This document shows, piece by piece, positions 49,353 to 62,960 of a stretch of 64,000 bases of DNA (position 1 is the stretch's first letter; each line of letters starts with the position of its first letter). The stretch spans positions 62,001 to 126,000 of the forward strand of contig NZ_CP119560.1 of NCBI RefSeq assembly GCF_029278565.1, in the 5' to 3' direction. A model generated the notes under the pieces. The model did no database searches and had not been told where the DNA came from. It worked only from the letters and a program-made list of their open reading frames with translations. A program made the translations under genes and the position numbers. Source of the stretch: Haloarcula halophila (lineage in GTDB: Archaea; Halobacteriota; Halobacteria; Halobacteriales; Haloarculaceae).

Positions 49353-50699
49353 ATGGAAATTGAAATCGCGACCGTTGGCGGGTACGAGGAAGTCGGACGA
49401 CAGATGACAGCAGTGCGTGCGGGCGACGATATCGTGATCTTCGATATGGGACTCAACCTTTCGAAGGTCTTGATTCACGACAATCTCCGGACGGAAGGCA
49501 TGCACTCACTGGACCTCATCGACATGGGTGCGATTCCCGACGACAGAATTCTCTCGGATCTCGATGGGACTGTCCAGGCGATCGTCCCGACACACGGCCA
49601 CCTCGATCATATCGGGGCCATCTCGAAACTCGCACATCGATACGACGCACCGATCGTTTCGACGCCGTTTACCTCGGCGCTCGTCGAAGAAGAGATCGAC
49701 GACGAGGACAAGTTCCACACCGACAACGACGTCGTGCAGATGAACGCCGGCGGGACGATGTCGATCGGCGAGCGGTGTGAACTCGAGTTCGTCAACGTCA
49801 CACACTCGATCATCGACGCGATCAACCCGGTCCTCCACACGCCGGAAGGTGCGATCGTCTACGGGCTCGACAAACGGATGGATCACACCCCCGTTATCGG
49901 TGACCCGATCGATATGAAGCGGTTCCGGGAGATCGGCCGGGAGGGCGAGGGTGTCCTCTGTTACATCGAGGACTGTACGAACGCGAACAAGAAGGGGCGG
50001 ACTCCGAGTGAGGCCGTCGCCCGTGAGCAACTCGAAGACGTCATGCTGAGTCTGGAAGACTACGACGGCGGGATCGTCGCGACGACGTTCTCCAGCCACA
50101 TCGCACGTGTCACGTCGATCGTCGAGTTCGCCGAGCGTATCGGTCGGCAACCGGTGTTGCTCGGCCGGTCGATGGAACAGTACTCCGGGACCGCCGAGCG
50201 ACTCGGAATCGTCGACTTTCCGGACGATCTCGGAATGTACGGTCACAGTCGCTCGGTCGATCGCGCGTTCGAGCGCGTCATGAACGAGGGCAAAGAGAAC
50301 TATCTCCCCGTCGTCACCGGCCATCAGGGCGAACCGCGTGCGATGCTCACACGGATGGGCCGCGGTGAGACGCCGTACGAACTCTATCAGGGAGACAAGG
50401 TCATCTTCTCGGCACGGGTCATCCCCGAGCCGACGAACGTGGGTCAGCGCTACCAGTCCGAGAAACTGCTCGGGATGCAGGGGGCTCGGATCTACGACGA
50501 CGTCCACGTCTCCGGGCACCTCCGGCAGGAAGGACACTACCAGATGCTCGACGCACTGCAACCACGGCACGTGATCCCGGCACACCAGGATATGGCCGGC
50601 TTTTCGGGCTACGTCGAGTTGGCCGGCAACCAGGGGTACAAACTCGGTCGGGACCTTCACGTGACATCGAACGGGAACACGATACAGTTGGTCGGCTGA
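49353..50699 (+). CDS. rnj: Ribonuclease J (beta-CASP metallo-beta-lactamase)
   Basis: 448 residues. The metal site is [13 protein letters not shown] beta-CASP insertion follows ([20 protein letters not shown] in shortened form, [15 protein letters not shown]). Later motifs are [14 protein letters not shown] and [20 protein letters not shown], ending in IPAHQDM. Archaeal RNase J is a 5'-3' exoribonuclease in RNA decay. The housekeeping copy in haloarchaea usually sits in an isoprenoid synthesis neighbourhood; here it stands alone, so this may be a paralogue. There is a 270-base non-coding gap upstream. Confidence 0.9.
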
Positions 50700-51097: not shown

Positions 51098-53215
51098 TTA
51101 CATCTCCGAACGCTTGATGAGTGCGTACAGTACCAACCCGCTGAGGATGACACTCAGATACACCTCTACTGCGACGAGAATCCGGGCTCCCCATCCGACG
51201 GGACCGATGTTTCCGTACCCGATCGTCAGGAACGAGATATAGCTAAAGGAGAGGAGCTTGTAGAAGGCCGCCTGGCCTTCCGGCGTCGTGAGCGCCGCAG
51301 TGACCGACACCGGCTGCGTTGCACTCGTCGAGAAGACTTGCCCACCGAACGCATAGAACAACGAGAACAGCGCCGGCGTGATGGCAAAGACGCCGAAGAT
51401 CCGGAAGATCCGCATCCCGTAGCCACAGGAGATCCCCAAGAACGCGTTTTCGACGGCTCTGATCCCGTTTTTCGCGCGTGCGGTCGTCCCGGCTGACCCG
51501 TCCAGCGCGATGTTGATGTGTTTCTTCCGGGCGTACTGCTGGCGTTTGACGCGGAACTCTCCGGCGGCTTTCATGTCGCCGGCGGCCGAAGCACTGTTTT
51601 TCGCACGGAGATACGTCGCCTCGATCGCCTCCGGTGTCATCTCGACGGCGTAGCCTCGTTCGACGGGGTCCTGGAAAGTGTGGATTTTCCATTCGTTTCG
51701 GTCCAGGTAGTCGGTGTGGGCCTCGAAGTCGAACTCGTTACCGTCGAACTCGTCGAAGATGGTCTCACAGAACCGGAAGTAGTCGAACAGTTCGCGGTGG
51801 TCGCGCTCCCGCTCCGCCGAGAGGTCGATATCGCCGAGACTGACTCTGGTGAAGTCGTATCTGACCCATCCCTCGGTCGGTTGTGTGATCGATCCGCCCT
51901 GGATCGAAGCGCCGGTGAAGTTCACGTACGGGTCGTCGCCGACAGCGCGCAACAGGAACCGGGCGTCGTCGGTGAAATCTGTCCCGGAGAAATCCATCGT
52001 GGCTGTGAACTCGGTGTCGCCGAAGGAGACCGATCTGAACTTCGCTCCGGTGAACTCGGCCGCGTCGGCGAACCTGGCCCGGTCGAAGGAGACGTTCTGT
52101 TCCAGTTGGTTCGCGTGGCCCTCGAACTCGGCACCGCGGAAGTGTGCCTGCCCGTCGAAGACGCTGTCGGTGAAGAGGGCCTCCTGGTGGAACCGGGTCT
52201 CGTCGAAGTCGGCCAGGCCCGAAAAGCGTGCCTCGGTGAAGTCGGCGTCCCCGCGGAACCGCGTCTCCTGAAACGTCGTGTCGGCATCGAACGTGGTCCG
52301 TGTGAAGTTGCTGTACCGGAATTGGGCTTCCGTAAACGTCGTCGCTCCTTCGAAGGTGGCCCCTTCGAAGGAGGCGTCGTCTTCCATCGTCCGCGCCCCG
52401 CCGTTGAACACCGCACCGCGGAACTGTACCGTTCCCTGCCAGTGCGTATCGCTGAAATCAGCGTCCTCGTTGCACTCGATCTCGTCGAAGGTGGCGTCGG
52501 CTTCGAAGACGACGCCCTCGAACTCGGTGTCGTGGTCGAAGAGCACCTCGGTGAACACTACCGGGGCCTGGAACGTGGCGCCGTCGAACCGGTTGGCCTC
52601 GAAGTGGGCCTGCTCGAAGGTCGTCTCGGACTCGAAGACCGCACCGGCGAAAGAGACGTTGTCGTCGAGTTCGTTCGACTCGCCCTCGAACTGGGACCCG
52701 CGGAAGGAGGCCGGCGCCTCGAACCGAGCGTCGGCGAAGCTCGTGTCGTCGTAGAACCCCGTCTCGATGAGGTCGACCGTGTCCTCGAAGACGGCGTCGT
52801 CGAACTCCGCGTCCTGTTCGAACCGGGTCTCGTCGGCCTGGACGGTCCCGGTGAACGTCGACCCGTCGAACTCGACGTCGTACTCGAACCGTGCGTGGTA
52901 GAGAAACAGGTCGTCGATCGTACAGTCGTGAAACCGGAGAGGCATGTCGATGTCCGCCTTCTCGGCGCTGATCCCCTCCTCGAACGTACAGTTCTCGAAG
53001 ACAGCGGGGTGGTTGTCGGCGCCGTGGACCACTTCGTAATCCAGGTTCAGCCCCGGGAAGGTACAGCCCTCGAAGGTCTTCTCGTCGGCCGTTCCATCGC
53101 GGAGAACCGTCTTCAGGGCGTCGTTGACCGCCTCGGTCCCGATGCCCTCGTTCTCACGCTCCTGGGGCGAGCGCGTGAGGACGGCGCGGGCCCGTGTGAC
53201 GTCAGAGTCTGGCAT
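51098..53215 (-). CDS. Pentapeptide-repeat protein fused to a K+-channel-type pore
   Basis: 705 residues. The N-terminal ~460 residues are a long pentapeptide-repeat beta-helix of the xxF type (ADFTEARFSGLADFDETRF, ASFEGATFEGATTFTEAQF), many coils in tandem. A helical linker follows (EATYLRAKNSASAAGDMKAA). The C-terminal ion-channel module has TM1 (YGMRIFRIFGVFAITPALF), a pore helix with selectivity-filter-like SFLTIGYGNIGP, and TM2 (VEVYLSVILSGLVLYALIKR). TIGYGN resembles the TVGYG filter, so K+ conduction is inferred. The start at 53215 (MPDSDVTRAR) is preferred over 53242. The large cytosolic solenoid may gate or scaffold the pore. Confidence 0.88.
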   Translation of the reverse strand: MPDSDVTRARAVLTRSPQERENEGIGTEAVNDALKTVLRDGTADEKTFEGCTFPGLNLDYEVVHGADNHPAVFENCTFEEGISAEKADIDMPLRFHDCTIDDLFLYHARFEYDVEFDGSTFTGTVQADETRFEQDAEFDDAVFEDTVDLIETGFYDDTSFADARFEAPASFRGSQFEGESNELDDNVSFAGAVFESETTFEQAHFEANRFDGATFQAPVVFTEVLFDHDTEFEGVVFEADATFDEIECNEDADFSDTHWQGTVQFRGAVFNGGARTMEDDASFEGATFEGATTFTEAQFRYSNFTRTTFDADTTFQETRFRGDADFTEARFSGLADFDETRFHQEALFTDSVFDGQAHFRGAEFEGHANQLEQNVSFDRARFADAAEFTGAKFRSVSFGDTEFTATMDFSGTDFTDDARFLLRAVGDDPYVNFTGASIQGGSITQPTEGWVRYDFTRVSLGDIDLSAERERDHRELFDYFRFCETIFDEFDGNEFDFEAHTDYLDRNEWKIHTFQDPVERGYAVEMTPEAIEATYLRAKNSASAAGDMKAAGEFRVKRQQYARKKHINIALDGSAGTTARAKNGIRAVENAFLGISCGYGMRIFRIFGVFAITPALFSLFYAFGGQVFSTSATQPVSVTAALTTPEGQAAFYKLLSFSYISFLTIGYGNIGPVGWGARILVAVEVYLSVILSGLVLYALIKRSEM

Positions 53216-53312
53216 TGCTATATAGTTCAACAGAACCGTCAAAAGTGTTTTTCCGTGACGGGAAAGATTTCTGCGGTCACGGTCGAAATCTGTTCCCCCA
53301 ACGGGTGCCTCG

Positions 53313-54278
53313 CTACTCTAGCGCGTCGCGCCGTTCGTCCTCGGAAAGGGAGACGTGGCCGGGCGCGTGGTGACTGCAGTGCTCACACTCGTAGGAGATA
53401 CCGCCGTCGTCGTAGGTTCTGACCGGGACTTTGAGCAGGAACAGCGCGTCTCGCTGTTTCCGTTCGATGACGGCGTCGGCGTTGCTACCACAGTTGGGAC
53501 ACCAGTCCTTGTCCGTTGCCGGTTCCTGCCAGGTGAGTTTGTGCCGGCCGAAGACGGCGTCGCTGTGGGCCTCGGATTTCGAGGTCTGGATGACCGCCTC
53601 GGGCGGGAGCGGGTCGGCATCCACTGCGTTGTCGAACCCGCTCTCGGCTGCCAGCGACTGCGAGAGATACGGACCGACACTGACAGTGTTGTCGCGGCCG
53701 ACGAAAAACACCGTCACGTCGGCGTTCCGCCCCTCGATGCGGACCTCGTTGTCCCAGCCGACGACGTATACCGTGAGGTCGTGTGTCGCCTCCCTGATCG
53801 TCACCTCGTTTTTCGCACCGACGACTGAGACGCCGTCGCGGGGATCGGTCGCTTCCTTCGTGTGGTTCCAGCCGTTGACCGTGACTTCGTACTGTTCGGG
53901 GGCTTTCGTCGGTGCCGCCGAGTCGTCGTGAAAGACCTGTTCGACGCCGCCGGCGGTGACTTGTTCGGCCCCACCGTACTGGACGAACGCGTCCTCGATC
54001 TCGGTGATGACCACGTCGTCGGTGACGTCGTCGACGTAGCCGTCTTCCAGGTTCCCGGTCACAGCCGTGTCGACATCGGACCCGCCCAGCGATGGAGACC
54101 CCTCTACTGCGACATCGGTGAAGACGTACTCCGCATCGAGAAACGCCAGTTCGCCGTCGACGGCGTCGCCACGGACGTACACGTCCTCGGCTCCCCGGAG
54201 TCCGATCGTCTCCTCGCGGTGTTGCAGTCGTACGTCGCCGGAGAACTCGTCGGTTGGGGCGTTCCAATCGCCAGCCAT
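53313..54278 (-). CDS. Beta-solenoid-like protein with C-terminal zinc ribbon
   Basis: 321 residues. The central part shows regularly spaced repeats, VTVNGWNHT, VSVVGAKNEVTI, VYVVGWDNEVRI and VFFVGRDNTVSV, like the Asn-ladder repeats of DUF3060-type solenoids. The C-terminus is a treble or ribbon metal site, WCPNCG ... YECEHCSHHAPGHVS. There is no signal peptide. It lies 97 bases upstream of the pentapeptide-channel gene on the same strand and may be co-transcribed. The start at 54278 (MAGDWNAP) is chosen. I do not recognise a named family for the whole protein. Confidence 0.72.
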   Translation of the reverse strand: MAGDWNAPTDEFSGDVRLQHREETIGLRGAEDVYVRGDAVDGELAFLDAEYVFTDVAVEGSPSLGGSDVDTAVTGNLEDGYVDDVTDDVVITEIEDAFVQYGGAEQVTAGGVEQVFHDDSAAPTKAPEQYEVTVNGWNHTKEATDPRDGVSVVGAKNEVTIREATHDLTVYVVGWDNEVRIEGRNADVTVFFVGRDNTVSVGPYLSQSLAAESGFDNAVDADPLPPEAVIQTSKSEAHSDAVFGRHKLTWQEPATDKDWCPNCGSNADAVIERKQRDALFLLKVPVRTYDDGGISYECEHCSHHAPGHVSLSEDERRDALE

Positions 54279-54380
54279 ACTTACCCCATCTACCGAAGCA
54301 CGACACTTCAAACGGGGGGAAGATGATCGCCAGTTGAGATAAACGGAACTTATTTACCCCTGTACATACGTGGATGGAAT

Positions 54381-55091
54381 ATGGACAGACGATCGTTCCT
54401 CCGAAGCAGTTCGGCGTTGGTCGGAGGAGCCGCCCTGAGTTCCCTCGCCGGCTGTTTCGGCGGTAGCGGCAGCAGCTCCCCTCCACCCCGACGGGCACAG
54501 GTGTTCGAAGACGTCTCGCTGGACGGACGGCAGTTGCAGATCCAGTTCGTCTCGGACCCCAGAGTCGAATCTCGCGTCGAGACGACCGAGGGATCGCTGG
54601 CAGTGGGTCAGCTCTCCCCGGTCGGCGTCGCCAGTGGACAGAAAGGCGGCGGTGGCGCGGCGCGCGGGTCCGGATCCTACAGCAGCGCCCCGCGAGGCCG
54701 GCACGGCTGGGCGGTCTGGCACGCCGGCAACGACGACGACGACTGGCGGGAGAACCACCAAGACGAACTGCGAATGTACCCGGCCATGATCGGCGCGGCC
54801 GGCGTCGCCTATCTGGGCAGCGACCAGCGCTACGAGGACGACCCGCCGGACGCGGGGCCAGTCCCGTGGGACAAGAAGTGGGAGAACCAGCAGGACGGCG
54901 AGTCCCACACGGTCCCCCTCTCCGAAGCCGCACCCTCGGACGCCCCCCGGGAGGGGTGGTATCGCGTCGGGACGAAACTCGTCGGCGAGGAGTCCGGTAC
55001 CGACTTCGGCTGGCAGGGTGCTGACTTCGAGATCGACAACGAGGGGACCTGGCAGATCGACAAGGCCTGGCACGTCCGGCCGCGCGTGTGA
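54381..55091 (+). CDS. Tat-exported lipoprotein of unknown function
   Basis: 236 residues. The twin-arginine signal MDRRSFLRSSSALVGGAALS continues to SLAGC (lipobox). A Gly/Ser-rich stretch follows (GQKGGGGAARGSGSYSSAPR), then GRHGWAVWHAGNDDDDWREN and an aromatic-rich C-terminus (GWYRVGTKLVGEESGTDFGW). It precedes the membrane spermidine-synthase-like gene by 12 bases, so it is operonic with it. In bacterial counterparts of this neighbourhood a small lipoprotein (DUF4247 class) occupies a similar position; homology was not established. Confidence 0.78.
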   Translation: MDRRSFLRSSSALVGGAALSSLAGCFGGSGSSSPPPRRAQVFEDVSLDGRQLQIQFVSDPRVESRVETTEGSLAVGQLSPVGVASGQKGGGGAARGSGSYSSAPRGRHGWAVWHAGNDDDDWRENHQDELRMYPAMIGAAGVAYLGSDQRYEDDPPDAGPVPWDKKWENQQDGESHTVPLSEAAPSDAPREGWYRVGTKLVGEESGTDFGWQGADFEIDNEGTWQIDKAWHVRPRV

Positions 55092-55103
55092 ACCTCACCC
55101 CGG

Positions 55104-56867
55104 ATGTCCCAGTCCGCGACCGACAGCAAGAACCAGATGGACAGTCCTGATTCTCCCCGGCGGTCGACGGTGACAGACCGGCGGTTCAAGCTCGGCTTGA
55201 CCGTCGTCGTCGCCTTCTGTTCGATCGCGTACGAACTCGTCTACTCACAGTTTTTGACCGTCTTCTACGGCGGGACGGTGGTTCGGTACTCCATCACCAT
55301 CGGGCTGTACATGTTCTCGCTGGGCATCGGCGCGTTGCTGTCGGGCCAGCTCGACGATCCCGAATCGAACCTCCTGCGGACCGAGGTGTATCTCTCCGTG
55401 GCCGGGCCGGTCGGGGCAGGGTTCATCATCGCGTTGAATTCCTTTCCGAACGTCGCCTTCCCGGGGAAATACACCGTCACGCTCGTCGCGGCACACCTGC
55501 CGATCATCGTGGTCGGTGTCCTCTCGGGGTTCGAGATTCCCCTGCTCGATTCACTCGTCGAGGACCGCGAGGGGTCACTGTTCTCGGCGATGGGGAGTCT
55601 CTACCCCCGCCGAGTCGTTCGTCGTGTCATGGGGCTGTTCTTCAGCGTCTCGGACTCGGAAGGCCGGTCGCTGTCCGAGGTCCTCGGCGCGGACTACATC
55701 GGGAGCCTCCTCGGGACTGTCGTCTACGCACTCGTGTTGTATCCCCGACTGGGGCTTGTCGTGACAGTGCTCGTGTTGGGGCTGCTCAACGCTCTTGCGG
55801 CCCTGGCGTTCGCGGCCTGGACGCTGACCGGCCGCTCGGAGACACTCTCCAGGCCGACCGTCGGAAACTGGCGTGCCGTACTCGTCGTTGGCCTGCTGGT
55901 GACGGGGACCTACGGCGGGCTGGTCGCCAACGGCGACGCGGTCGACCGGACGGTCACCGGTGCGTACATGGGCGATCGGATCGCCGACGAGTACCGTCCC
56001 GGTTCGGTCGAGATCGACGTACAGAGCTACGATACGACCGCCTACCAGCGGGTTACGATGTACGAGCGGCGCGTCTCGACCCACGCCGGCCCCGAGCAAT
56101 GCCTGCGTCTCGATAGCGCCCTCCAGTTGTGTGATAGCTGGGTCGACTCCTACCACAGCGGTCTCGTCGACGTGCCCATGTCGATGTACGACGACCAGTC
56201 GTCGGTCGACGTGTTGCTCGTCGGCGGCGGTGACTACATCGCGGTGAACCATCTCCGGGACTACAACGTCTCGGTCGATCAAGTCGACATCGACGGGGAG
56301 TTCCTCGAATACACCAAGAACCGGAGCTACTTCGAACAGTTCCACGACGACGCCTACGAGTACGATCGACTGAACACCACCGTCGGTGACGCCTACACCT
56401 ACCTCCGTGGAACCGACAAGGAGTACGATCTGATACTGCTTGACGTTCCCGGCGCGCGTAGCGACGACGCGCTCCCGTTGTACTCCCAGGAGTTCTACAC
56501 GCTCTTGGATCAGCATCTGACCGATCGTGGCGTCGTCGTCTCTTGGGTGTACTCAGAGTACACCTACCCACAGCACAACAAGGCGTATCACAACACCGTC
56601 GCCGCCGCAGGATTCGACCGACACCTGCCGTACTCCGTGGTCGAGGACCTCGACGGTGACGGGGAGTACGAACGCGGGGAGCAGTTCTACGTCCTCTCGG
56701 ACGGTCCCACGCCACGGCCGGATCTGGAACACGCCCGCGGAGCGTACGTCAGGAACAACGCGGATCGGTTGGGTCCCTTCGAGTGGCAGCGCCTCGCGAC
56801 GTATCGTGGTATCAAGCCAAACAGCGTCTTCGATCCCAACTACGACATCATCGTCGGCTACACATGA
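55104..56867 (+). CDS. Membrane-anchored spermidine-synthase-like aminopropyltransferase
   Basis: 587 residues. Six to eight hydrophobic segments occupy ~30-275 (LGLTVVVAFCSIAYELVYSQ, LYMFSLGIGALLSG, LGLVVTVLVLGLLNALAALA). A soluble spermidine-synthase Rossmann domain follows, with nucleotide motif VDVLLVGGGDYIAVNHLRDY, acidic VDQVDIDGEFLEY, and LILLDVPGARSDDALPLYSQ with EFYTLLDQHL. The GGGDY motif replaces the usual GGGDG. The predicted chemistry is transfer of an aminopropyl group from decarboxylated SAM, but the substrate is unknown. It overlaps DUF2617 (ATGA). Confidence 0.87.
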   Translation: MSQSATDSKNQMDSPDSPRRSTVTDRRFKLGLTVVVAFCSIAYELVYSQFLTVFYGGTVVRYSITIGLYMFSLGIGALLSGQLDDPESNLLRTEVYLSVAGPVGAGFIIALNSFPNVAFPGKYTVTLVAAHLPIIVVGVLSGFEIPLLDSLVEDREGSLFSAMGSLYPRRVVRRVMGLFFSVSDSEGRSLSEVLGADYIGSLLGTVVYALVLYPRLGLVVTVLVLGLLNALAALAFAAWTLTGRSETLSRPTVGNWRAVLVVGLLVTGTYGGLVANGDAVDRTVTGAYMGDRIADEYRPGSVEIDVQSYDTTAYQRVTMYERRVSTHAGPEQCLRLDSALQLCDSWVDSYHSGLVDVPMSMYDDQSSVDVLLVGGGDYIAVNHLRDYNVSVDQVDIDGEFLEYTKNRSYFEQFHDDAYEYDRLNTTVGDAYTYLRGTDKEYDLILLDVPGARSDDALPLYSQEFYTLLDQHLTDRGVVVSWVYSEYTYPQHNKAYHNTVAAAGFDRHLPYSVVEDLDGDGEYERGEQFYVLSDGPTPRPDLEHARGAYVRNNADRLGPFEWQRLATYRGIKPNSVFDPNYDIIVGYT

Positions 56868-57376
56868 CACGAGAAACGCTCACGTTCGTCCACAGTTCGA
56901 CCCCACCCACCGACGAGGTTACCGTCTACGACGAACTGACCCGGTCTTTCGTCGGTACCCAGTTCCGCTTCCGGGTGATCGGAAGCTCACACTACGTGAG
57001 CGCGTCGGAGTACGACTTCTACGAACTCTCGTCGTGTGATCCCGTCGACAGCAGTGGTGCGGTGATCCCCCTTGATACGGGTGGGGAGCGCCGCCGACTC
57101 AGCCACGAGACTGACCGGGTCAAATGCCAGACGGTGATCGAACACGAACCACTGGCAGCGTTCCCGTCCGAAGCGTCCTTCGACCTGGCGTACTGGTTCG
57201 GAGAGGACGCGGTCACGGCGATCGATCTCGGTGAGAACGGTTACGAGACCTACCACACGTATCCGGAGTACGATCTGACGCTGTACAGCCAAACCAGGTT
57301 CGTTCGACTTCCCGAGCGGGGGGAGGAACTGGTCAATGAGAGCGAGCGAACCGAACTCGCCAATCGGCCGGAGTGA
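56864..57376 (+). CDS. DUF2617 family protein
   Basis: 170 residues starting MTRETLTFVHSSTPPTDEVT. Motifs FRFRVIGSSHYVSASEYDFY, ELSSCDPV and YETYHTYPEYDLTLYSQTRF follow the DUF2617 pattern as remembered. No catalytic residues are obvious. It overlaps the spermidine-synthase-like gene, and this pairing also recurs in bacterial gene neighbourhoods with ion channels, supporting a shared pathway. Confidence 0.75.
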   Translation: MTRETLTFVHSSTPPTDEVTVYDELTRSFVGTQFRFRVIGSSHYVSASEYDFYELSSCDPVDSSGAVIPLDTGGERRRLSHETDRVKCQTVIEHEPLAAFPSEASFDLAYWFGEDAVTAIDLGENGYETYHTYPEYDLTLYSQTRFVRLPERGEELVNESERTELANRPE

Positions 57377-57388
57377 GCGCCTGGCGGT

Positions 57389-57799
57389 TCACTCGGCCCC
57401 GACTGGGACGATCGTCACGGGAACGGTCGCCTCGTCCACGACGGCGAAGGCAGTGTTGCCCTGGGTGATGTTCTCGACGACACCTTTCGGGAGGTGGCCC
57501 ATGACGATGTGGGAGATGTCGACATCGGCCGCGATATCGAGCAGTTCCTTCGCAGTCCGGGTGGCGTTGCGGTTCCCCTGGTGGGTGATGTACTCGACGG
57601 AGATGGTCGAAACGACTGTCTCGTCGCCGATGCGGTCCCGGGTCTCCTCACGGACCCGACGGGCGTCCGGGTTCGCGTCCGTCTGCTCGACGAGATGGAC
57701 GATGTAGAGCTCCCGGTTCAGCCCGGCTCCCAACTCCGTCGCCACTTCGAGGACCCGATCACGCGCAGCGTCGTCAGCGATTGCTACGAGGATGGTCAT
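57389..57799 (-). CDS. Universal stress protein (UspA family)
   Basis: 136 residues, single Usp domain. It begins MTILVAIADDAARDRVLEVA and has the ATP-binding-like motif MGHLPKGVVENITQGNTAFA, a GxxxxGxxx variant, then VVDEATVPVTIVPVG. Its role is in stress or energy-state response. The ATG at 57799 is chosen over 57844. It is convergent with the DUF2617 gene, with a 12-base gap. Confidence 0.9.
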   Translation of the reverse strand: MTILVAIADDAARDRVLEVATELGAGLNRELYIVHLVEQTDANPDARRVREETRDRIGDETVVSTISVEYITHQGNRNATRTAKELLDIAADVDISHIVMGHLPKGVVENITQGNTAFAVVDEATVPVTIVPVGAE

Positions 57800-58053
57800 G
57801 TACGGGTGTTTGTCCCGGAGGCGCATATCTCTGCTGTCGTCCAAGCAGGGACGGGCGTCGCTGTATCCCGTCCGGTGCTGTGTCTTGGTACCACTGGGTT
57901 TAATATACGAAATAATATAATAGACGTTCGGGCACGTTCCCGATATTGCGTATATACCTATAATCCGGGAGTCTGAACTGTCATCGTCGTTCGGTCACAA
58001 CATATCAAAGATAGAAAAGGTACTTACGAGTGGGGCCCGTTTTCTCTGTTACA

Positions 58054-58217: not shown

Positions 58218-59072
58218 TTACCGGGAGACGCCACGATGGTACGCTCTTTCCGTCGTATTTGTATCGGAAGTCGTCCGCTCGCTCTGTTGTCCGACCCCAC
58301 TTGGAGTCGGTGGTGTCCCGGCGTCTGGCTCCCAGTGACGGACGTGCTCGGCGAGTCCCCCGAACTCCTCGCTCGCGTCCCCGGACGCCGGTGTGACACC
58401 GACGAGCATCACCAGATCACCCTCGTGGATCACCCTGGCGACGTAGACGGTAACGTTGACCGGATCAGCCTCGGGTGAGGCGACGACAGAGCCACCGAGC
58501 CGAGACATCTGAGTGTCCTGTCCGACCATCCGGACGGGGCTGTCGCTACGGACAGTCAGGTCCGTGACGTTGGTCACGTTCGACGGCAAGTAGGCCTCTC
58601 CCTGGTCGATGAAGAATCCGGACTGGTTCAAGACACGAGGGTCCGACCCATAGACCAGTGGGTTGAACGCGACCGGCCCGAGTTCGAGCGAGGACATCGA
58701 GACGACCGTCACCACAGAGGTGTTTGCCACGTCGACCGTCGCGTTCCCACTGGTCGGTGTCTCCGAGGGGGGACCTGCCGTCTGGTTCTCCGTCGAGAGT
58801 CCAGTTACGTACGTACTCACCCAGACTCTGAGACTCACGTTTCGGCCGACCCCCGGGACCGGGCTGTAGCTGGCGTTGAACGACGTGGTGTTCAACGACG
58901 TGTACCCCGCCTCGGAAACTGCCGGTTCTTCCACTGTCGCCGGTCGCGAATCGTAGAAGAGCAGCGGGCTGTCGTCGGTGACGACCAGCCAGCCGCCGAC
59001 GAACACGGTCGCGATCACTACCAGAAACCCGACGGCGATCCCGAGGAAGAGGAGTTTCCAGTTCATACCCAT
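58218..59072 (-). CDS. Membrane-anchored DUF6517-like protein
   Basis: 284 residues. A single N-terminal membrane helix (WKLLFLGIAVGFLVVIATVF) is followed by an external beta-rich domain with several N-glycosylation-type Asn-X-Ser/Thr sites (SLNTTSFNASYS, NVTNVTDLTV). The region RPATVEEPAVSEAGYTSLNT ... SMSSLELGPVAFNPL resembles DUF6517 proteins of haloarchaea. The C-terminal ~40 residues are low-complexity Thr/Ser/Gly. The ATG at 59072 (MGMNWKLL) is chosen over 59123. Its function is unknown. Confidence 0.68.
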   Translation of the reverse strand: MGMNWKLLFLGIAVGFLVVIATVFVGGWLVVTDDSPLLFYDSRPATVEEPAVSEAGYTSLNTTSFNASYSPVPGVGRNVSLRVWVSTYVTGLSTENQTAGPPSETPTSGNATVDVANTSVVTVVSMSSLELGPVAFNPLVYGSDPRVLNQSGFFIDQGEAYLPSNVTNVTDLTVRSDSPVRMVGQDTQMSRLGGSVVASPEADPVNVTVYVARVIHEGDLVMLVGVTPASGDASEEFGGLAEHVRHWEPDAGTPPTPSGVGQQSERTTSDTNTTERAYHRGVSR

Positions 59073-59221
59073 GGTATCACTCCCCAAGGGTATGACGTTT
59101 ATCTGTGACAATACCCAAACCACACGGTATCACCGCGATAAGCGGGAGCAAAGGTCGTCTAGACAGGAAAGACGTATATAGAAGGTCCGGCGTACCATGC
59201 TCAGTAAGTACCGGCCCGATT

Positions 59222-61413: not shown

Positions 61414-62925
61414 TCACGTTTCGTTGCGGAGTTGCGCGGTGACGACACTCTGTACTTCGTCGGAGGCGGCGACTTCGATCCGGGAATCCTCCCGGAGCGT
61501 CTCTAGGATCGTTGCCGGTCGCTCACCGAACTGGAATTCCAGAAACATCCCGGAGCTCGGACCGTGGCTTCGGCGCTCGAAGTCGACCAGCGAGTAGGTC
61601 GTCATCTCTTTCATCTTGTTGACGTAGGTCTCCTGATGATACTGGTCGGCGTCGATCGACTCAGTAAGGAATTGGTACACCTTGTAACCAGTCGTGCTAC
61701 GGGCCGTACCGTCTTCCGTCTGTTCTGCGACGGCCGCTGTAGCGTAGAGACAGAGTTTCTTTTGCTGGCTGATCCCTCGAACGACCTCCAGAACGCGGTT
61801 TTTCTCGACCTTGTCCTGGGCAGCCCTGACGTGTCGTTCACGGACCCGCTCGTCACCTTGGCGCTCTGCGAGTTCGCCGGCGACCCGCATGAGGTCGATC
61901 GCCTTACGCGCGTCGCCGTGAGTCTGTGCGGCGAACGCCGCCGCGAGCGGAATGACGTCGTCGTCCAGGACGTCTTCGTGGAAGGCATCACGCCGCCGAC
62001 GGAGGATCGCCTGGAGTTGATTGGCGTCGTAGTCGTCGAAGTGGACGTCCTCCGGCGTGAACGAGCTCAGTGCGCGGCTCCCGACGGACTCCATCATCTT
62101 CGTGTCGTTCGAGATCGCGACGACGGAAAGATACGCCGTCAGTTCGTCGTTGGCACCCGCCCGCGAGAGTTGATAGAGAAGGCGGGAAAACGCCGGTTCC
62201 TGTTTGTCGCGACGACCGACGAGCATATCTAACTCGTCGAGGACGAAGACGACCGAGTCGAAGTTCTCGTTGACGATCCGGAACAGTTCGTCCCACTTCT
62301 CTTTGGTCGCGACACCGTGTTTCGGGACCTCTACCTCGACGCCCGCTTCGTCTGCTGCACGGCAGGCGAGTTCGTAGACACCGACGCCCAGCGTGTCGAT
62401 GTCCTGGCAGTTCACTTCGACGGTTCCGAACCGGATATCCCGGGACTCACAGATCCGACTGATGTTTTTACAGACTGCCTTGGTTATCAGCGATTTGCCG
62501 GTCCCCGAGGGACCGTATAGAAAGAGGTTCGGCGGCCGGTTGTCCCCGAGCGCGACCCTGAGCATCTTGGTGACTTCCTGCAGTTGCCTGTCCCGGCCGA
62601 CGATCCGGTCTTCCGCAACGACGTGGTTCGGGTCGATGAGCGATCGATCCCGGATCAGTCCTTCCTGTTCGTCGAACTCCAGAAGCATCTCCTCGATCGA
62701 CTGAGATCCAGTGTCCGACTGTGACTCCGATTCGGCCGATAGCTCGTCGGGCGACGAGTCGACGGTCGCTTCCGACGAGTCGACAGCATCCTGTTGCTCC
62801 GTAGGTGGCGGATCGGACTGTTCCTCCGAACTACCGATCCGCTCCGAGAGACTCGTCTGTTCCCCGTCCCCCCCGTTCGACGCCGCACGGCCCTCGGTGT
62901 TGTCCTGGGCGTCGTCCGTGTCCAT
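61414..62925 (-). CDS. orc1: Orc1/Cdc6 replication initiator
   Basis: 503 residues. The N-terminal ~80 residues are a disordered Ser/Asp/Glu-rich extension. The AAA+ core has Walker A YGPSGTGKSLITKAVCKN, Walker B VVFVLDELDMLVG, sensor 1 SVVAISNDTKMM and a C-terminal lid; a winged-helix DNA-binding domain (~410-500) contains KEMTTYSLVDFERRSHGPSS. It recognises origin boxes and loads the MCM helicase. The ATG at 62925 is preferred to a TTG at 62937. The origin repeats lie immediately upstream (62961-63898), the usual orc1-origin arrangement, so this protein most likely reads those boxes. Confidence 0.94.
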   Translation of the reverse strand: MDTDDAQDNTEGRAASNGGDGEQTSLSERIGSSEEQSDPPPTEQQDAVDSSEATVDSSPDELSAESESQSDTGSQSIEEMLLEFDEQEGLIRDRSLIDPNHVVAEDRIVGRDRQLQEVTKMLRVALGDNRPPNLFLYGPSGTGKSLITKAVCKNISRICESRDIRFGTVEVNCQDIDTLGVGVYELACRAADEAGVEVEVPKHGVATKEKWDELFRIVNENFDSVVFVLDELDMLVGRRDKQEPAFSRLLYQLSRAGANDELTAYLSVVAISNDTKMMESVGSRALSSFTPEDVHFDDYDANQLQAILRRRRDAFHEDVLDDDVIPLAAAFAAQTHGDARKAIDLMRVAGELAERQGDERVRERHVRAAQDKVEKNRVLEVVRGISQQKKLCLYATAAVAEQTEDGTARSTTGYKVYQFLTESIDADQYHQETYVNKMKEMTTYSLVDFERRSHGPSSGMFLEFQFGERPATILETLREDSRIEVAASDEVQSVVTAQLRNET

Positions 62926-62960
62926 GTCAGTTCCCAACGACGCTGGGCTTAAATAACTTC

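Follow-up and report, generated by a model that had tools for sequence, protein, structure and literature searches.

A five-gene module in the 64,000-nucleotide window analysed here, part of a 525-kb haloarchaeal replicon (G000:C2), contains a DUF2617 gene whose product is very probably a homologue of AdoMet decarboxylase (AdoMetDC), as judged from profile comparisons and a predicted structure. The module itself is real with practical certainty, and we moderately favour reading it as a self-contained haloarchaeal system for membrane aminopropyl transfer in which DUF2617 would supply decarboxylated AdoMet. The homology is probably a new point: the family stands in Pfam as a DUF, the preliminary description of this DNA had missed the relationship, and the PSP paper lists DUF2617 merely as a “predicted enzymatic domain” with no specific function (PMC11237479).

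Gene A (51098-53215, minus strand) encodes a pentapeptide-repeat beta-helix (Pentapeptide_3, E 2e-52) fused to a two-transmembrane (2TM) K+-type pore (Ion_trans_2, E 3e-5), whose selectivity filter TIGYG (51212-51226, minus strand) reads TIGYGN with the following residue. Gene B (53313-54278, minus strand) encodes a DUF3060-type Asn-ladder solenoid with a C-terminal zinc ribbon (CPNCG...CEHC), and gene C (54381-55091, plus strand) a Tat-exported lipoprotein with a GC lipobox followed by PPPR. All five genes that the preliminary description had grouped around one divergent gap are present, with B and C diverging from a putative promoter gap of 102 bp (54279-54380, no strand); on the C side of this gap, a TATA-like CTTATTTACC (54349-54358) lies upstream of that gene and is a candidate promoter element. 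Gene D (55104-56867, plus strand; alternative start at 55137 by comparison with locus L066) combines an N-terminal TM domain with a Spermine_synth domain in a membrane aminopropyltransferase-like enzyme. Gene E (56864-57376, plus strand) encodes the DUF2617 protein, a predicted compact two-half AdoMetDC homologue; comparison with relatives moved its start from 56783 to 56864, and the D stop and E start overlap as ATGA in the window. Across loci, the starts of C and E were set by alignment, as some first-start frames (L075 9787-11589, L123 and others) overrun neighbouring genes on GC-rich DNA.

When 194 haloarchaeal genomes were searched with each gene, E was found in 33 of them (about one in six; 18 genera), and close homologues of D, C and B occurred in exactly the same 33. 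Under independence of the genomes, which does not hold, a single such coincidence would have a probability of about 5e-38; despite genome kinship, the 18 genera and the changing neighbourhoods place the linkage far beyond chance. The order and strand of C-D-E are constant across all 35 loci compared, in one of which the convergent stops of B and E overlap, and A and B take at least six placements around them, the window's included. Channel gene A adjoins the module in 32 of the 33 genomes and sits on another contig in the remaining one (G113). Retrieving loci a second time, along another route, yielded 44, many of them from the same species and 36 with all five genes; A was not seen adjoining the module in a few loci of this set, for example in Haloferax elongans, Halocatena and two metagenome genomes. 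The linkage of the families is thus conserved across 18 haloarchaeal genera and extends beyond this genome. The closest annotated relative of the window's D, 97% identical, lies on a Haloarcula plasmid, and a plasmid of Haloarcula sp. GH36 has identical five-gene content and order. The window's D shows 68% identity to D from genomes of another family versus 47% to some D of its own genus, a pattern that suggests horizontal transfer.

Recurrent flanking families are confined to single genera, and because flanking genes are not conserved we regard the five genes as the complete module. Among the neighbours in the window, frames at 58218-59123 and 57389-57844 (both minus strand) encode a DUF6517 protein and a universal stress protein that are also present in L066 and do not recur in the flanks of other genomes. 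An RNase J family beta-CASP ribonuclease (49353-50699, plus strand; MG423 family, 422.9 bits) is not conserved with the module. An Orc1/Cdc6-type protein (61414-62937, minus strand) is encoded nearby and annotated so at the matching place in L066, and in Haloarcula sinaiiensis (L069) the module likewise has an orc1/cdc6 gene in its vicinity; a replicon origin near the module is possible.

The window's E scores 21.3-21.6 bits against PF10936 (E 2.5e-4; cut-off 22.3), all 29 sampled relatives match DUF2617, and most of those checked exceed the cut-off, with up to 33.7 bits. The first hint of a further relationship came from weak AdoMetDC matches of the E profile in Pfam and the PDB. We distinguish alignment A1, which was not selected by motif, from A6, retrieved through its HTYPE pattern, and A9, cut from A6; invariance in A6 and A9 is partly by construction, and A1 is free of this. 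The sole PDB match of the A1 profile was the AdoMetDC 2iii, weakly (E 0.41), and four AdoMetDC chains led the search with a profile of the second half of E (half 2; best 2iii, E 0.0027), in the register FxPxxxT...HTYPE against FxPxGxS...HTWPE of SpeD. By hhalign, A1 scored 35.6 against SpeD, whereas none of 200 column shuffles exceeded 19.2 and reversing the alignment gave 11.5. The C and B profiles gave no such signal. This profile similarity was detected for half 2 only: half 1 scored 14.4 against SpeD, within the shuffle range, and its sequence comparison with half 2 did not rise above shuffles. The SpeD of Novosphingobium, as a single sequence, fell into the correct register on A6 but at a low probability (prob 3.5), and Pfam AdoMet_dc gave a weak match in one E member and otherwise none.

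The AF2 model of E (pLDDT 90.5) consists of two similar strand-turn-strand units. Foldseek of this model returned no match at E<0.001 against the PDB and none against predicted viral structures, where one phage AdoMetDC stood at rank 27 (prob 0.72). The AdoMetDC rows come from a second look with VIA, in which they took all of the top four places: the human proenzyme 1msv (Z 7.7, 137 residues aligned over 1-150), T. brucei 6bm7 (6.1) and T. maritima 1vr7 (5.5) and 1tmi (5.3; both over residues 2-74), with the first unrelated row at Z 4.7 and with the tool's own note that Z < 8 can be a common arrangement and not proof. The result gains its weight from the fact that sequence had pointed to AdoMetDC beforehand; the C model put through the same procedure gave no AdoMetDC.

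The residues of the two halves can be placed on those of known enzymes. The half 2 motif F112-x5-T118-x12-H131-TYP-E135 (57197-57268, plus strand), in the register given by HMMER and hhalign, sets F112 at Phe49, T118 at Ser55, H131 at His68 and E135 at E72 of SpeD; Thr118 replaces Ser55, and the pyruvoyl position of this half is mostly Gly. In human AdoMetDC, Ser68 becomes the pyruvoyl group and Ser229 and His243 are required for processing, Ser55 of the T. maritima enzyme being equivalent to human Ser229 (PMC3975893). The half 1 motif from Ser42 to Cys58 (56987-57037, plus strand) would contribute the pyruvoyl precursor (Ser42) and the proton donor (Cys58): its pattern IGxS42H...E54xxxC58 resembles SES63H...D79xxxC83 of SpeD, and a weak hhalign match aligns Ser42 with the pyruvoyl Ser. 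Residue pattern, register and model suggest this half 1 assignment, for which the sequence score is not significant. The set of residues expected of an AdoMetDC, namely an internal Ser, a Cys proton donor and a processing His, is present in E, with predicted roles. Like the halves of the eukaryotic enzyme, each appears to retain residues that are gone from the other, and we infer with good support from sequence and model that the two compact halves together form a single active site, with Ser42 and Cys58 from half 1 and Phe112, Thr118, His131 and Glu135 from half 2.

E thereby resembles two known classes and differs from both. It shares with class 1b SpeD (T. maritima 1vr7/1tlu, Aquifex 2iii) the F49/S55/H68/E72 positions and the S63...C83 pattern, but joins its two halves in a single chain of about 150 residues, and neither half has the catalytic residues of the other. 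The eukaryotic class 2 enzyme (human 1msv) is the best structural match to the whole model and likewise has complementary catalytic residues in two halves, whereas E is half as long, shows 10% identity over the structural alignment and gives no match to it in sequence searches.

Conservation of the predicted catalytic residues bears on whether E is an active enzyme. S42, H43, E54, C58 and H131 are invariant in 29 haloarchaeal sequences not chosen by motif, and S42, H43, E54 and C58 are also conserved in the Pfam DUF2617 profile. A search for bacterial DUF2617 on plasmids found no bacterial homologue, and conservation in bacteria was read indirectly, from how far residue changes lowered the Pfam score. 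Changing H43 or H131 cost 7.2 bits each, C58 5.8, E54 5.1 and S42 3.2, while T118, E135 and a control site cost less than 1 bit each, which marks Thr118 and Glu135 as poorly conserved across the broader Pfam family. The high cost at H43 and H131 fits the two conserved His residues of DUF2617 noted before (PMC11237479). On sequence and model together, we think it fairly likely that E is an active AdoMetDC. E might instead have the fold and no decarboxylase activity: comparable to the trypanosome prozyme, it would be a dead subunit that binds AdoMet or decarboxylated AdoMet and serves to sense AdoMet or to regulate D. Such a subunit would agree with half 2 retaining the adenine/ribose-side residues while half 1 is very divergent, and with nearly all sampled haloarchaea being without any SpeD; catalytically dead AdoMetDC paralogues are known (PMC6221367). 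We nevertheless hold it to be rather unlikely, since Ser42, His43 and Cys58 are invariant and conserved in the family as catalysis predicts, and since D would have no donor.

The Spermine_synth match of D (PF01564) has E 4e-16 and 59.5 bits, and the C-terminal part of D matches solved aminopropyltransferases (PDB 1uir, E 6e-22). Four sites, GGGD377, D395, D429 and D447, are invariant in 29 sequences, at positions that we take to bind decarboxylated AdoMet or to be catalytic in spermidine synthase. Like PRK03612 (NCBIfam NF002956), D has a TM domain and a Spermine_synth domain and retains these residues on the side of decarboxylated AdoMet, but it scores 222 bits against an equivalog cut-off of 472 and has DxPGA in place of DxxDP, with G450 invariant in 29 sequences where the known enzyme has DLTDP. 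Because the second Asp of DxxDP is missing, D is filed as aminopropyltransferase-like and not as a spermidine synthase; by its sequence it is probably an aminopropyltransferase, and the DxPGA motif means that ordinary diamines may not be used and that the acceptor may be unusual. A second, distant spermidine-synthase-like family, mostly in frames of 520-690 aa, occurs separately from the module at G000:C1:2437317-2437988 and in about 70 other haloarchaeal genomes.

Aminopropyltransferases require decarboxylated AdoMet. SpeD (PF02675) was found in two of the 194 haloarchaea, neither of which has DUF2617, although among 120 genomes of the phylum the search recovered it in 43. Among 14 control genomes, DUF2617 occurred in two and SpeD in eight with no overlap, Haloferax volcanii being one that carries DUF2617. 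The two haloarchaeal SpeD loci are L181 (G139:C2:78495-79823) and L182 (G090); in G139, SpeD adjoins a short aminopropyltransferase-like frame (about 318 aa) an arrangement resembling a simple SpeD-SpeE pair. The alignment of D with the aminopropyltransferase of a Novosphingobium operon spans the whole protein, TM region included; that operon has the order SPFH-DUF4178-DUF4178-DUF350-aminopropyltransferase-FAD oxidoreductase-SpeD, and its combination of SpeD with a full-length homologue of D supports E as the maker of the donor. SpeD homologues have repeatedly turned into ornithine or arginine decarboxylases (PMC10407285), and E could similarly be a pyruvoyl decarboxylase of ornithine, arginine or another substrate. 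This we consider improbable, because E adjoins an aminopropyltransferase-like enzyme in an operon type that has SpeD in a bacterium, and because the genomes already have a pyruvoyl arginine decarboxylase, a source of agmatine present in all nine searched.

In A, the filter residues T, G, Y and G are invariant in all 36 aligned sequences, and two TM peaks (protein residues 607-625 and 674-702) flank the TxGYG filter, as expected of a K+ channel together with the Ion_trans_2 match; selectivity is predicted. Frames of 1,100-1,500 aa that match the C-terminal region of A occur in genomes without the module (G027, G042, G111, G133, G153 and others), and judged from these matches the channel type also lives outside it. 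DUF3060 was matched in 29 of 30 B members, and the zinc-ribbon residues Cys260, 263, 298 and 301 are invariant in the 30 sequences. In eight loci (L081, L088, L089, L092, L118, L124, L134 and L135), B is cut to about 200 aa and reversed beside E, with the final turns of the solenoid and the zinc ribbon retained. C has invariant RR, GC and PPR residues, and its AF2 model (pLDDT 77) predicts a generic beta-sandwich that matched only generic Ig/FnIII-like folds in the PDB and nothing specific.

The module has its nearest counterparts in bacterial PspA/SPFH-linked polyamine operons with a 7TM spermidine-synthase-like enzyme, DUF350, DUF4178, DUF4247 and DUF2617 (PMC11237479). Common to both are a membrane aminopropyltransferase, a lipoprotein and a beta-rich protein, along with the channel of some bacterial variants and the DUF2617 of one. 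The haloarchaeal module differs in showing no PspA, SPFH, DUF350, SpeD or polyamine oxidase, in having a pentapeptide-2TM fusion as its channel, and in the DUF3060 solenoid with zinc ribbon that is its B; neither PspA/CesT nor SPFH with DUF350 appeared in the annotated module neighbourhoods examined. The preliminary description had seen here an archaeal version of the bacterial system and had linked B to DUF4178 and C to DUF4247. Its general relation to operons with an aminopropyltransferase, DUF2617 and a channel (PMC11237479) stands, together with the full-length homology of D, while DUF4178, DUF4247, DUF350 and PspA have found no counterpart. DUF4178 was absent among the 25 families shown for 30 B members, and hhalign overlapped it by at most 10 residues, at the zinc ribbon; DUF4247 matched none of 29 C members in a profile search up to E 5. 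That the module simply reproduces in archaea the polyamine/DUF350/DUF4178/DUF4247/ion-channel system of bacteria, with polyamine-gated ion flow and no role assigned to DUF2617, would account for the homology of D to the bacterial operon enzyme and for the recurrence of DUF2617 and a channel in bacterial variants (PMC11237479). We give it little credence, as no DUF350 or PspA is seen in the module, B has no DUF4178 match and C no DUF4247 match.

In the mechanism that we propose, E would likely cleave itself at Ser42 to become a pyruvoyl enzyme and would likely make decarboxylated AdoMet, standing in for the SpeD that these archaea lack. The membrane-embedded D would transfer the aminopropyl group from decarboxylated AdoMet to an acceptor, speculatively agmatine or a membrane component, lipid or protein being equally possible; agmatine is plausible given the pyruvoyl arginine decarboxylase in all nine genomes. 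From domain type we guess that A acts as channel, B as cytoplasmic scaffold and C as surface sensor. Also speculatively, the product of D might set the opening of the K+-type channel A, or lipoprotein C and scaffold B might sense a stress that does so. Control of A by the product or pathway is conceivable if doubtful, and involvement in ion balance or envelope stress is reasonable because the bacterial operons pair polyamine enzymes with a K+ channel (PMC11237479). Our most inclusive proposal, which we put forward tentatively and with a little less than even confidence, is that DUF2617 is an active compact two-half AdoMetDC of archaea and actinobacteria, an unrecognised architectural class that supplies decarboxylated AdoMet where there is no SpeD. 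In haloarchaea it would provide this donor to a membrane aminopropyltransferase, and the product of that enzyme would act in control of a K+ channel or of the membrane.

If this is true, organisms that have an aminopropyltransferase and no SpeD would have in DUF2617 a candidate for their missing AdoMet decarboxylase, and a two-half archaeal relative would bear on the origin of the eukaryotic enzyme. Early work cited in PMC8394153 reported no polyamines in halobacteria, which speaks against our reading; the module in turn would question the view of haloarchaea as being without aminopropyl chemistry. For the bacterial puzzle of why polyamine enzymes occur next to ion channels and genes of envelope stress, it would also provide an archaeal version, one that is genetically tractable as Haloferax volcanii has DUF2617.
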